Assembly (NCBI RefSeq): GCF_013376105.1
Contig: NZ_JAAMFM010000016.1
Location: 1 to 64,000, forward strand
Length of the DNA stretch: 64,000 nt
DNA from: Arthrobacter wenxiniae
GTDB taxonomy: Bacteria > Actinomycetota > Actinomycetes > Actinomycetales > Micrococcaceae
Reading direction: 5' to 3'
This document shows positions 41,800 through 46,262 of the stretch, piece after piece (the stretch's first letter is position 1; each line of letters opens with the position of its first letter). A model generated the notes under the pieces. That model ran no database searches. It saw only the letters and a program-made list of their open reading frames with translations, and was not told the DNA's origin. The position numbers and the translations under genes are program-made.

Positions 41800-42600
41800 C
41801 TAGGCGGCCGGCGCGTGCAGCACCTGCCCGGGCAGGATGACGTTGGGGTCGCCGCCGATGACGCTGCGGTTGGCCCGGTACCACTCGGGCCAGGCCTGCG
41901 CCACCTCCACGTCCGTGGCGTACGGGCCCAGGGCGGAGGCCACTATGCCCCACAGGCTGTCGCCGCCGCGCACCACCACCGCGCCGGCGTCAGCGTCCAG
42001 GCTGGCCGGGGCAGCTTGCTGCACCGGGGTTCGGGTCTGGGGGCGTGCCAGGGGACCCGGGTCCGCGGCAGGGGCCTGCGGCGTCCACGCAGGGTTCACC
42101 GGCGGGGTGCCGGAGACCAATGCGGCCGCGCGGCCGGCTGCCTGCACCGGGCCCGCCGCACCTGCCGCCGTCGGCGGCACGTGGAGCGGTGCCTCGGCAA
42201 CCGGGACGGGATGCCATTGCGGATCGATGGGGGCGCCGGTCGCGGACGCCGCCGTGGCCATGGGGGCCGCCACCAGGTTCAGCCCCAGCACCACGGCGGC
42301 CAAGCGCCGCATGAAGGCGGGCGAGCACGCGCCGGCCCTTGAGGCGAGGCGGGGCCTGCCGCAATGGCAGGCCAGCGCGGAAATAAGGGCGCAGGCCAGG
42401 GCCGCCAGCCACCAGAATGTGACGGCAAGGCCGATCCCGGCGGCCGCGGCACCCACCATCTCGGCGAGTTCCAGCGGAGCGGCGCCATGAGGGCCGCCGG
42501 TCCGGTGGCGCAGCAGGACACTCCCGGCGAAGACGAGGGAAGCGCCAAGGAACAGGACTGCCACCGTCATGGCGGTGTCCGCTACGGCCTGCCTTTTCAT
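41800..42600 (-). CDS. LysM-domain membrane protein
   Basis: 266 aa. Three hydrophobic helices (about 8-30, 48-75, 94-113) anchor it. A Pro/Ala-rich stretch follows, then a C-terminal LysM domain (about 207-264; VVVRGGDSLWGIVASAL, VILPGQVLHAP) that should bind peptidoglycan outside the membrane. It lies 101 bases upstream of the Rv3235-like gene on the same strand; the pair recurs in Micrococcales as I recall. A 10-bp-period TTTGA array lies 21-80 bases upstream of its start. Confidence 0.85.
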   Translation of the reverse strand: MKRQAVADTAMTVAVLFLGASLVFAGSVLLRHRTGGPHGAAPLELAEMVGAAAAGIGLAVTFWWLAALACALISALACHCGRPRLASRAGACSPAFMRRLAAVVLGLNLVAAPMATAASATGAPIDPQWHPVPVAEAPLHVPPTAAGAAGPVQAAGRAAALVSGTPPVNPAWTPQAPAADPGPLARPQTRTPVQQAAPASLDADAGAVVVRGGDSLWGIVASALGPYATDVEVAQAWPEWYRANRSVIGGDPNVILPGQVLHAPAA

Positions 42601-42620
42601 GGCGTCATTCCCGCCTTCCT

Positions 42621-42680
42621 GATCTTTGACATCGTTTGAACTCGTTTAACATCATTGAATCAATTTTGAACCTCTGTGAG
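42621..42680. promoter_or_regulatory. Six-unit 10-bp-period TTTGA array
   Basis: Six consecutive decamers, starting at 42621, 42631, 42641, 42651, 42661 and 42671, carry TTTGA-like cores at the same phase: TTTGAC, TTTGAA, TTTAAC, TTGAAT, TTTTGAA-type and TGTGAG. Position 5 is T and position 9 is A in all six. The stretch is AT-rich in a GC-rich window. One-turn spacing suggests cooperative head-to-tail protein binding or a DNA unwinding element. Confidence 0.65.
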
Positions 42681-42707
42681 TGGAAATGTCCAGACCCGGC
42701 CGCAGCT

Positions 42708-42716
42708 TGTGGACAA
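42708..42716 (-). promoter_or_regulatory. Perfect DnaA box
   Basis: TGTGGACAA, reverse complement TTGTCCACA, is the actinobacterial DnaA-box consensus. A 7/9 variant (ATGTCCAGA) lies at 42686-42694 in the other orientation, next to the AT-rich decamer array. Confidence 0.55.
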
Positions 42717-42841: not shown

Positions 42842-43402
42842 ATGCGATGGGATGCGCTGTTTGGGGACCTGGATGCCCAGTGGCATGCCGCCACGCAGCA
42901 GGAACTGGAGGGCCAGGTCAACGAACTTGCCCGCGTGGAGGCGTCCCAGGTCACGATGGCCGATGCGCTTCGCGGGTCGCTGGGACGCGAGGTGGCCGCA
43001 GTGCTGCGAAACGGCGTCGTCCATCACGGGACACTCCAGCGGGTGGAGGCGCAGTGGATGCTCATGGGCTCGGGTGGGCTGTCAGTGGTGCTGCCGCTGG
43101 CAAAGCTCCAACAGGTGCGCGGGATCGACCATGCGCGCGGTGTCCTGCAGGGCCGCGTGCGCTACACGCTGGCGTCCGCCTTGCGCATCCTGGCGCGGAA
43201 CCGGGCGGCGGTGGCCCTTGGCCTGGAGTCCGCACAGCCCGCCGGGGTGCGCGGGGTGTTGGACCAGGTGGGTGCCGACTTTGTGGTGGTGGCACGAATG
43301 GCCGACGGCGTGGCGAGGGTCCGCGGCAACCAGCAGGGCACCGTGGTGGTGGCGCTGGATGCGGTGATGTCCGTGACGTCCTCGGGTGAAAACGAGTTTT
43401 AG
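42842..43402 (+). CDS. Conserved hypothetical protein
   Basis: 186 aa, family not recognised. The N-terminal helix (WDALFGDLDAQWHAATQQELEGQVNELARVEASQ) could form a coiled coil. The rest alternates short strands (AAVLRNGVVHHGTLQRVEAQWMLM, SVVLPLAKLQQVRGI, ADFVVVARMADGVARV, GTVVVALDAVMSV), giving an impression of a small all-beta, Sm/PRC-barrel-like fold. No signal peptide or membrane helix. Leaderless ATG with strong promoter. The stop overlaps the stop of the convergent HTH gene by four bases. Confidence 0.8.
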   Translation: MRWDALFGDLDAQWHAATQQELEGQVNELARVEASQVTMADALRGSLGREVAAVLRNGVVHHGTLQRVEAQWMLMGSGGLSVVLPLAKLQQVRGIDHARGVLQGRVRYTLASALRILARNRAAVALGLESAQPAGVRGVLDQVGADFVVVARMADGVARVRGNQQGTVVVALDAVMSVTSSGENEF

Positions 43403-43635
43403 CCGGCGGTCCCCGCATGGTCCGTCTGTTGGGTGTGGCCGGCCGCGAGCATGGCACGGGCCGCGGCGTGGCGGTCCTCGATGAACTGGTCGAACTTGGC
43501 GGCATCGACGCGCCACTGCCCGCGGCCGCCAATTTGGAATGCCGGAAGTTCGCCGCTGCGCACCAGCGAATAGCACGCGGCGGCGGAAATTTGGAGTTCT
43601 TCGGCCACATCGGCCAGCGTCAAGAATCTAGGCAT
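43399..43635 (-). CDS. Small excisionase-type (MerR-like) HTH protein
   Basis: 78 aa from ATG 43635. LTLADVAEELQISAAACYSLVRSGELPAFQIGGRGQWRVDAAKFDQFIED is a complete winged HTH of the HTH_17/excisionase family, related in fold to the developmental regulator BldC and MerR heads. No effector domain. In actinobacterial chromosomes such proteins are common regulators, not only phage excisionases, and no integrase is near. The targets are unknown; the 10-bp-period array 1 kb away is a candidate. Confidence 0.85.
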   Translation of the reverse strand: MPRFLTLADVAEELQISAAACYSLVRSGELPAFQIGGRGQWRVDAAKFDQFIEDRHAAARAMLAAGHTQQTDHAGTAG

Positions 43636-43673
43636 GCATCCATTGTCGCCCCTTTTGCCTGTATTTGTTCCCG

Positions 43674-43734
43674 TTATCCACCGTTTGGCCGCCTTGACCC
43701 TTCGGTGCGGGCCGAACTTATCCACATTATCCCG
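43674..43734 (+). promoter_or_regulatory. DnaA-box cluster
   Basis: TTATCCACA (43718-43726) is a perfect consensus box. TTATCCACC (43674-43682) matches 8/9. TTATCCCG (43727-43734) abuts the perfect box as a weaker copy. All are in the same orientation in the 231-base gap between the HTH gene and the SAF-domain gene. Confidence 0.55.
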
Positions 43735-43866: not shown

Positions 43867-44502
43867 ATGGACGCACAGGGCAGGGCGCCAAGACTGGCCA
43901 AACCGTCGTGGCGGGACCCGCGGCTCTTCGTCGGCATGCTGCTGGTCCTGGCCTCCGTTGCCGGCGTGGTGGCACTTTTGGACAGCGCCGATAAAACAGT
44001 CCCCGCCTATGTGGCCAGGGACGCGCTGGTGGTGGGCCAGACCGTCACGGAGGATTCCTTTGACGTTGTCCGGGTGCGCCTCGGCGAGCTGGACGGGAAA
44101 TACCTGGACCCCGGGGGAGCCCTTCCCACCCATGCCGTGGCCGTGCGGATGGTCCCAAAGGGAGAGCTGGTGCCTGCCAGCAGCATCGGAGGCACTGACG
44201 CGCTGGACCGCAAGACCGCATCCGTGACCGTGTCCGAGCCGCTGCCCAAGGAGGTGGTGGCCGGATCGCACGTCGACGTGTGGGTTGCGTTGCCCGACGA
44301 ACGCAACGGCTATCGGGAACCGGTGCTCATGCTGCCGGGCGCAGAAGTGGCCGCCTTGAATGACTCCTCCACCAGCCTCGGGGCGGGTCGGACCACGCAA
44401 CTCATGGTGCTCGTGACGGACGTCCAAATGCCACAGTTCCTGGGGGCCGTGGCCAACAAGGCCAAGGTGTCCGTGGTGTGGAACCCGGCAGGCGCCCGGT
44501 GA
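43867..44502 (+). CDS. SAF-domain membrane protein (CpaB/FlgA-like)
   Basis: 211 aa from ATG 43867, after GGAGGAG. A basic N terminus precedes one helix (about 19-38, LFVGMLLVLASVAGVVALL); a SAF domain follows (about 45-105; VPAYVARDALVVGQTVTEDSF, VPKGELVPASSI) and a beta-rich tail. CpaB of Tad pili and FlgA share this layout. The next gene, overlapping by four bases, is a CpaE-like ATPase, but no pilin, CpaF ATPase or TadB/C membrane genes are present, so a Tad pilus cannot be claimed here. Confidence 0.8.
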   Translation: MDAQGRAPRLAKPSWRDPRLFVGMLLVLASVAGVVALLDSADKTVPAYVARDALVVGQTVTEDSFDVVRVRLGELDGKYLDPGGALPTHAVAVRMVPKGELVPASSIGGTDALDRKTASVTVSEPLPKEVVAGSHVDVWVALPDERNGYREPVLMLPGAEVAALNDSSTSLGAGRTTQLMVLVTDVQMPQFLGAVANKAKVSVVWNPAGAR

Positions 44503-46262
44503 TCCCCGTTGATCCTGCGGGCCCTGTCCGAGCGGTGACCGTCGTTGCGGTTGGGGACACCCCGGAGCACGCCATTGAGGCGCTGGAACGCAGCCGCGGG
44601 CCCGTCGCCGTGGTCCGGCGCTGTCCCGAGCTGGCGGGGCTGCTGGCCGCCTGCCAAAGCGGGCTGGCGCAGGTGGCCGTGGTGGCCGCGGACACGGACG
44701 CCCTGACGGCCACGCTGGTCGACCGCCTCACGGCCGTCGGAGTCAGCGTCGTGGCGGTGGCAGCAACTCCCGCCGAGGCGGCACGGCTGCGCAGCATTGG
44801 CGCCTGGCCCCTCACCGGAACGGCCGGGGTGGAACTGCTCACCGAATCCGTGCTGGCCGTGGTCAGCGCCCGCAGGCACCGCCCGTCGGCCTCCTTTGGC
44901 TTCCCCCTTGCTGAACGGCCTGCCGACGTGCCCCGCCGCGGACTGCCGCATTCCACCGGGCTGCCGGACGATGCCCGATTGCCGGGCGACGCCGGAGGCC
45001 GGCCTTTCGCCGGAGGCTGGCCTTTCGCCGGACCGACTGCGGGCGCCCGGGGTCGGGAACCGGACAGTGCCGCCGCCGCTGGACCCTTCCCCGGCCGTGC
45101 GTCCACCGCCGGCGAACCGGCGGACAATGCCGCCGGGGAGCCACCCGGGCAGGCCGGGGGCGGTCATGTCGCGCACATTCAGACCAGGCCCGGCGGGCGC
45201 TCCGGAAGCCATGCCCCGGCCCCGGGCGTCCTAGCCAAGGTTGCTGGGCGGGTGAAGTCCGCGGTGGCCGGCGGCGGCTCGCTGCTGCGGCCACGAGGCG
45301 GCGGGACGCCCGCAGGGCACGCGCGCGTTGTGGCGGCCGGCGCCGCGGATTTGGGCGCCGCGGAGGCCGGCGCGCAGGAGTCCGCCCTGGCCGGGGATCC
45401 CGTAACGCGGCGCACCCTGGCCGTGTGGGGGCCCATAGGTTCACCGGGGCGAACGCTTCTCGCCGTCAACATGGCCGGCGAACTCGCAGCCCGGGGGCAA
45501 CGGGTCATGCTGGTCGACGCCGACAGCTACGGGGCCAGCGTTGCCGCCAGCCTGGGCCTCCTGGATGAGTCCGCGTCCTTTGCCCAGGCCTGCAGGGTGG
45601 CCGACCAGGGCCTGCTGACGGTGGCTGAACTGGCCCGGATCTGCTCCGAGGTGGTGTGCGCCGGCGGCACGTTTTCGCTCCTGACCGGCCTGACCCGTTC
45701 GGACCGGTGGCCCGAACTCCGCGCGGCCGCCGTTGAGCGGGTGCTCCAGACGGCCCGGACCATGGTGGACACGGTTGTCATTGACTGTGGCTTCTGCCTG
45801 GAAACCGACGAGGAACTCAGCTATGACACTGTGGCGCCGCGGCGCAACGCGGCAACCCTTGCCGCGCTGGCCCAGGCGGACACCATCTACGCGGTGGGCA
45901 GCGCGGATGCCGTCGGCATCCCGCGGCTCATCCGGGCACTCGCGGACCTGACGGAGGCTTGCGCAGGGTCCGAGGTGCGGGTGGTGTTGAACAAGGTCCG
46001 GAAAAAGTCCGCGGGGGGTTCCCCGGTGAAAGCCCTCGAGGATGCCTGGCAGCGGTTCGGGCCGGCACTGCCCATTGGCCATGTCCTCCCCTGGGACCCC
46101 GACGTCCCCGCCCGGGCATTGCTGGAAGGGCAGCTGCTGCAGGAACTGGCCCCGGACTCCGCCCTGCGCCGGGCCATCCGCGACATCTGTTGTGCACCTG
46201 TCCAGGGAAACCACAGAACTGCTGTATTAAGCGCCACAGCAAGGCCCGGGAATCCGGGCTAG
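44499..46262 (+). CDS. CpaE-like P-loop ATPase with deviant Walker A
   Basis: 587 aa from GTG 44499 (GTGA overlap). N-terminal domain 1-125 is a receiver-like alpha/beta fold. Then a long Ala/Gly/Pro-rich linker (about 125-290). Then a MinD/ParA-type domain (about 303-560) with P-loop GPIGSPGRTLLAVN, MLVDADSYGAS, VVIDCGFCLE and LNKVRKKSAGGS. The catalytic Lys of GKT is Arg (GRT), a variant seen in actinobacterial CpaE-like proteins. It probably positions or regulates the envelope function of the SAF-domain partner. ATP hydrolysis is not certain. Confidence 0.82.
   Translation: MIPVDPAGPVRAVTVVAVGDTPEHAIEALERSRGPVAVVRRCPELAGLLAACQSGLAQVAVVAADTDALTATLVDRLTAVGVSVVAVAATPAEAARLRSIGAWPLTGTAGVELLTESVLAVVSARRHRPSASFGFPLAERPADVPRRGLPHSTGLPDDARLPGDAGGRPFAGGWPFAGPTAGARGREPDSAAAAGPFPGRASTAGEPADNAAGEPPGQAGGGHVAHIQTRPGGRSGSHAPAPGVLAKVAGRVKSAVAGGGSLLRPRGGGTPAGHARVVAAGAADLGAAEAGAQESALAGDPVTRRTLAVWGPIGSPGRTLLAVNMAGELAARGQRVMLVDADSYGASVAASLGLLDESASFAQACRVADQGLLTVAELARICSEVVCAGGTFSLLTGLTRSDRWPELRAAAVERVLQTARTMVDTVVIDCGFCLETDEELSYDTVAPRRNAATLAALAQADTIYAVGSADAVGIPRLIRALADLTEACAGSEVRVVLNKVRKKSAGGSPVKALEDAWQRFGPALPIGHVLPWDPDVPARALLEGQLLQELAPDSALRRAIRDICCAPVQGNHRTAVLSATARPGNPG

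Follow-up and report, generated by a model that had tools for sequence, protein, structure and literature searches.

A phased direct-repeat array, strongly supported as the operator of a LysM gene, and its candidate winged-HTH reader in Arthrobacter wenxiniae

What do six direct repeats, one helical turn apart, do over the start of a LysM gene in Arthrobacter wenxiniae? They lie in a stretch of 64,000 nucleotides (assembly GCF_013376105.1, contig NZ_JAAMFM010000016.1), which we analysed as a whole and refer to as the window. On one side of them the LysM gene starts at 42600 on the minus strand, and on the other a divergent gene encodes a 186-aa protein, beyond which follows the gene of a 78-aa HTH protein (Table 1). 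The initial annotation had described six in-phase TTTGA decamers at 42621-42680, and these are present as first described, with T5 and A9 in 6/6 units. The TTTGA core itself is literal in three of the six (units 1, 2 and 5); the others read TTTAA, TTGAA and TGTGA. The natural strand of the array is the minus strand, that of the LysM gene, where the unit becomes TCAAA-N5 and the six copies read TCACAGAGGT TCAAAATTGA TTCAATGATG TTAAACGAGT TCAAACGATG TCAAAGATCA. The AT-rich island in which they had been placed is also real, the GC content of the array being 35% against 62% in the 241-bp intergenic stretch.

Table 1. Coordinates of the features discussed, with the basis or status of each
Feature	Position	Strand	Basis or status
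LysM gene, 266 aa	41800..42600	-	weak NCBIfam LysM-type matches
Operator array, six 10-bp units (strongly supported as operator)	42620..42679	-	conserved in phase before LysM orthologues
Predicted LysM promoter	42663..42692	-	promoter scan
DnaA-box-like TTGTCCACA, upstream of LysM promoter	42708..42716	-	putative
Divergent conserved 186-aa protein, between LysM and HTH	42842..43402	+	no Pfam/NCBIfam match
Candidate reader, 78-aa HTH_17 / excisionase-type winged HTH protein	43399..43635	-	Pfam HTH_17 E 1.3e-11
Degenerate second array	43649..43688	-	p 0.086 alone; clearer in relatives
DnaA-box-like TTATCCACC, HTH promoter, overlaps array	43674..43682	+	putative
DnaA-box-like TTATCCACA, HTH promoter	43718..43726	+	putative

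At period 10 the best six-unit score was 26/30, compared with 13-18 at periods 6-9 and 11-15. The four-, five- and six-unit scores at this period were never equalled in 5000 dinucleotide shuffles of the intergenic stretch, nor in 5000 of the AT-rich island. With the period left free between 8 and 12, seven of 5000 island shuffles equalled the four-unit score, but the five- and six-unit scores were still out of their reach. Outside the array, six-unit scores in the window peaked at 17 on the minus strand and at 18/30 on the plus strand; the plus-strand peak (43634-43654) falls in the promoter of the HTH gene. The array is real and not a chance pattern. A scan of the whole genome for further arrays returned one other, weaker place: the three-unit pattern TCAAA-N5-TCAAA-N5-TCAAA occurs, with at most two mismatches, in the array (one mismatch) and at this second position (two mismatches). 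With a relaxed pattern (at most one mismatch) we obtained 49 matches in 58 genomes, overlapping registers being counted separately, of which 39 were assigned by eye to LysM or HTH promoters and 10 lay elsewhere; a backward control pattern gave two matches in the same scan. This distribution rules out that such arrays are scattered genome-wide.

The LysM protein consists of N-terminal hydrophobic segments (by eye), a proline-rich middle and a C-terminal LysM-like domain; the Pfam LysM model matches 16 of 25 aligned orthologues and does not match the window copy. A promoter scan predicted TGGACA (42692-42687), an 18-bp spacer and CAAAAT (42668-42663), so the placement of the array over the LysM leader and promoter holds: the predicted -10 element overlaps the second unit, and the array extends from there into the leader. 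Most units follow the predicted start, and the final one overlaps the ribosome-binding region, the overlap being TCAAAGGAGA in 5/23 same-genus genomes. In all 23 of these, TGGACA or TAGACA is found upstream of the best array register. On the plus strand, a promoter-like TTGACA-18-CATCAT (10/12) lies inside the array at 42626-42655, and could possibly serve the divergent 186-aa gene. Beyond the HTH_17 gene there are SAF-like and ParA-like genes; 19 of 20 fetched relatives likewise have the SAF-like and CpaE/ParA-like genes (43867-46262) next to HTH, and the CpaE/ParA-like ATPase has a weak match to the Ssd septum-site model. The SecA and GDH labels of other window genes were read from translations, SecA having been typed with Pfam in a relative only.

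LysM matches were found in 51/58 genomes, the window's own among them, and 50 upstream regions were compared, G046 being omitted at a contig end; in G044 the match adjoining the HTH gene was taken and not a slightly better one, and longer upstream stretches were used for matches starting inside the protein. Period 10 was strictly best in 45 of the 50 and tied in two (G033, G037), while three scored better at another period. The mean four-unit score was 16.1 at period 10 versus 11.0-11.7 at the other periods from 7 to 14, and a shuffle p of 0.01 or less was reached in 44 regions, with six exceptions. Over 114 same-genus units T1 was kept in 91%, C2 in 93% and A3-A5 in 89-97%, percentages that are inflated because the units had been chosen for at least 4/5 matches; in relatives the unit often reads TCAAAC-NN-CA. 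We then have a wider set of 110 loci, which includes the window (L207), L213 and L127-L134 (apparently same-genus genomes already used). A LysM match was present in 89 of them, and in 60 there was an array that outscored the 95th percentile for reversed controls, a result that is not independent of the 50-genome one since the unit model was trained on same-genus genomes. In 55 of these 60 loci the array was on the LysM strand and at most 500 bp upstream of a LysM match.

In other orders, the array is reduced to two or three (G/T)(C/T)AAAC units after a promoter. At 28 class-level loci, of which L216 and L227 belong to the window's own order, 19 YAAAC pairs on the LysM strand had spacing 10, while spacings of 16, 26 and 34 were each represented by a single pair. 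The opposite strand of the 28 loci had no such pairs; it served as control because reversed sequence is a poor one for YAAAC (17 pairs at spacing 10, CAAAC reversed matching as well). For 15 of the 19 pairs a LysM match follows downstream, sharing contig and strand with the pair, and in 13 of these cases the distance is at most 450 bp; for the other four, LysM was not placed in such a position. Nine of the 28 loci lack an exact pair at spacing 10. At least 10 class loci show, by eye, a TTGACA-like element, 17 bp, a TA-rich -10 and then the units. Thirteen further genomes had LysM without HTH, the two genes apart, or the two a few kb apart on one contig (G158, G102), and in 11 of them a unit pair at spacing 10 was located upstream of LysM; no unit pair was found upstream of the LysM match in G200, nor in G102, where HTH lies about 3 kb from LysM. 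The initial annotation had staked its idea on conservation of the array before LysM orthologues and on binding by the HTH protein, and the first of these, the half that can be computed, did not refute it: the decamer phase is conserved before the orthologues. By these sequence comparisons, the array is conserved in helical phase across the bacterial class.

Which protein could read it? The nearby HTH protein, a lone MerR-like wHTH of 78 aa with no coiled coil or effector domain, also matches the excisionase-family model TIGR01764. Matches to it were found in 55/58 genomes, including all 51 with LysM (the weakest of these at E 4.9e-13), and the three genomes without it are also without LysM. 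Its gene lies within 3 kb of LysM in 44/51 genomes (by eye). Among 148 genomes of the class, with thresholds of E<=1e-20 for HTH and E<=1e-18 for LysM, 54 had both genes, five LysM only, 21 HTH only and 68 neither (Fisher p 3e-17, phylogeny ignored). Because 21 of the 75 class genomes with a strong HTH match have no strong LysM match, the HTH protein may have other targets. As for the five LysM-only genomes, the HTH match of G061 is cut at a contig end, and G124 and G161 are fragmentary assemblies. G067 (98% complete; locus L239) has a two-unit array and no HTH match at E<=1e-10, and in G200 no array was seen and HTH is not among the matches listed. At L241 of G124 a unit pair stands upstream of LysM although the genome has no strong HTH match.

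The HTH gene appears to have a shorter array at its promoter, whose units in the window are CCAAACGGTG GATAACGGGA ACAAATACAG GCAAAAGGGG. In the window's genome it is not significant alone, yet the plus-strand peak of the six-unit scores outside the LysM array (18/30) falls on it. A p of 0.05 or less was reached in 17/23 same-genus genomes and in 23 of 54 HTH upstream stretches overall, 17 of the 23 being same-genus, with G026 entered twice and the weak matches of G052 and G056 omitted; outside the genus, the own-promoter array is thus only partly found. TCAAA pairs at spacing 10 were seen at 25/80 named loci, against at most nine at any other spacing from 6 to 20. On the opposite strand, there was none at spacing 10 in 79 named loci, a count that omitted L205 and misplaced L200, whereas the same-strand count covers all 80. 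A GATAAT -10-like element lies at most 25 bases before the HTH start codon in 13/23 same-genus genomes (in the window GACAAT, 43641-43648), which suggests a leaderless HTH mRNA.

An AlphaFold2 model of the HTH protein (pLDDT 82, pTM 0.59) has a long last helix at 45-66. According to Foldseek, its nearest solved folds are those of Pukovnik Xis and BldC, with RdfS further down, at a probability of 1.00 and with no E-value below 0.001 (the BldC matches 6amk and 6ama have E 0.016 and up). Pukovnik Xis (4j2n) is the best PDB match both by sequence (profile, E 0.0009) and by fold. The proposal that the nearby HTH protein is the partner of the array is carried part of the way by synteny, co-occurrence, the own-promoter array in most same-genus genomes and the BldC/Xis-like predicted fold, and we consider this protein the best candidate reader, with moderate support.

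BldC of Streptomyces is a small protein with only a MerR-like wHTH, which binds two to four direct repeats, 9 bp or one helical turn apart, at promoters; without it, five key targets are expressed earlier (PMC5859096, PMC6428758). It strongly distorts its DNA (PMC5859096). Its consensus AATT-N3-4-C/G is loose and not critical, and its sites are said to be unpredictable bioinformatically (PMC6428758); the unit TCAAA-N5, AT-rich and then C, fits it loosely. Like BldC, the HTH protein is a lone wHTH, the predicted fold being nearly identical (6amk, TM 0.87 by target length), and on the DNA side alone there are direct repeats about one turn apart at a target promoter. However, the BldC contact residues K26, R30 and H46 (PMC5859096) align to A19, S23 and R38, and BldC binds many promoters, whereas the present array has sharp units and is a rarity in its genome. 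A profile comparison of the two proteins gave a probability of 66% (39 columns, 26% identity). The genome yielded no BldC orthologue (best match E 0.065, neither of two hits being the HTH protein), and BldC itself was rejected as the reader here. As to the BldC-type reading first put forward, the protein is not BldC, the contact residues are absent and the repeats are more defined in sequence than BldC sites are said to be.

Apl of phage 186 has direct repeats 10-11 bp apart, in seven copies between and over two promoters, and binds them cooperatively with repression of both (PMC7498355), a behaviour proposed here for the HTH protein. Apl is by analogy the closest precedent for repression from a 10-11-bp direct-repeat array, but it is a phage recombination directionality factor and switch regulator, whereas the present locus is chromosomal and kept class-wide. 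Pukovnik Xis and RdfS share the HTH_17 wHTH fold, and RdfS forms filaments (PMC11963761); these are excision factors of mobile elements, whereas at the HTH locus none of the seven window proteins typed with Pfam is an integrase. Gene order around the HTH gene is kept in 19/20 fetched relatives, and with the same lack of an integrase this speaks against a role as excisionase or recombination directionality factor. No tRNA was found in the window, so a tRNA-linked insertion was rejected. BldC, Apl and Xis are plausible models for how the HTH protein works, although it is not BldC itself.

A signal of specificity was sought between protein and unit. Out of 127 loci with a strict HTH motif, 120 had an array, and 80 distinct pairs were left after nine ties and repeats had been dropped. 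Residue 34, just before the wing, is the column most associated with base 1 of the unit (of 58 columns), the pairs being Q-T 50, K-G 24, K-T 6 and Q-G 0. On a tree built from 57 columns, there were six K/Q changes and seven G/T changes, with one phylogenetically independent pair on supported branches. For this reason the link is only suggestive as a specificity signal, and phylogeny may explain it.

The assignment of the array as operator of the LysM gene is strongly supported. To the whole reading, an autoregulated wHTH repressor assembled head to tail over the LysM start, we give a probability of roughly 0.7. HTH monomers would each occupy one unit, lined up along a single face of the helix, and would join head to tail over the stretch between the -10 element and the leader, so that the transcription start is covered and the LysM cell-wall gene repressed. 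The protein would, in the window's genus, regulate itself negatively as well by binding the shorter array at the HTH promoter, and the LysM and HTH promoters would be its main targets. Binding by the HTH protein, its cooperative head-to-tail assembly and repression, the last read from the position of the operator, are what we infer.

It is conceivable, if unlikely, that the reader is some other DNA-binding protein of wider distribution, such as a response regulator or a further small wHTH, and that HTH is a syntenic neighbour. The presence of HTH in 51/51 LysM-bearing genomes, the array in front of most same-genus HTH genes and the way residue 34 tracks base 1 of the unit all argue against this, as does the failure to find a BldC orthologue in this genome. 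In its favour, some response regulators bind direct repeats too (PMC5859096), and this genome has nine HTH_17 matches (seven over the cut-off, the 78-aa protein included). The array also accompanies LysM where HTH is on another contig or more than 100 kb away, as in eight genomes (G132, G117, G179, G199, G146, G189, G155 and G075), and it stays in G067, where no HTH was detected. LysM in G132 still adjoins SecA and AlkZ, and therefore the HTH gene is the one placed elsewhere in that genome.

We think it somewhat less probable again that the HTH protein activates LysM, or that it bends the DNA and alters promoter geometry. MerR-type proteins can activate, and the strong distortion of DNA by BldC (PMC5859096) would be in keeping with bending. 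Nevertheless, the array overlaps the predicted -10 and the DNA downstream, not just the -35/-10 spacer, and at the class loci it begins just after the TA-rich -10 (by eye), a position that suits occlusion. The repeats might instead act in the RNA leader, as repeated UCAAAC for an RNA-binding protein or as an unstructured leader, given that most units are 3' of the predicted start and the last reaches the ribosome-binding region. This seems very improbable: a one-turn period suits DNA, the copies at the HTH promoter precede the GATAAT near the start codon and are thus probably not transcribed, and Rfam yielded no family at the gathering threshold. Chance, plain AT-richness or phased A-tracts with intrinsic curvature and no specific reader have next to nothing left in their favour: the island does have 35% GC, A-runs every turn and the seven shuffles with free period, but dinucleotide shuffles at period 10 rule out the first two, conservation across the class contradicts all three, and in the 114 selected units the A-run is no better kept than T1 and C2.

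Both promoters also carry DnaA-box-like elements, for which we take TTRTCCACA as the consensus. Across the HTH and LysM promoters they appear as TTATCCAC followed by A or C, or as TTGTCCACA. The form TGTGGAYAA occurs in 20/23 same-genus HTH promoters and in 6/23 LysM promoters, and the density in HTH promoters is 5.4/kb compared with 0.11/kb in the whole 10.5-kb loci (about 47-fold, against a background that is mostly coding). A TCCACA element lies 21-22 bp upstream of the LysM -35 in 19/23 same-genus genomes. In many named HTH promoters TGTGGATAAC overlaps the last TCAAAC unit, and because its GATAAC is in the array register, part of the DnaA-box-like signal may be array units and not DnaA boxes. 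A class-wide, undescribed circuit of Actinomycetes, in which a filament-forming wHTH repressor and DnaA act on the same two promoters, is a speculation to which we give little credence; if true, it would tie release of the wall-associated LysM protein to the replication cycle.

In the open-licence literature, we did not find a published description of the operator or of the HTH protein. Only a few cases are known in which lone winged-HTH domains read direct-repeat operators, and most of these are phage factors and BldC. With its sharp unit, its candidate reader, the small number of apparent targets and the many natural variants found in the class, the array makes one-turn head-to-tail recognition directly testable. 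For the bacteria themselves, it suggests that a cell-wall LysM protein is under conserved control.
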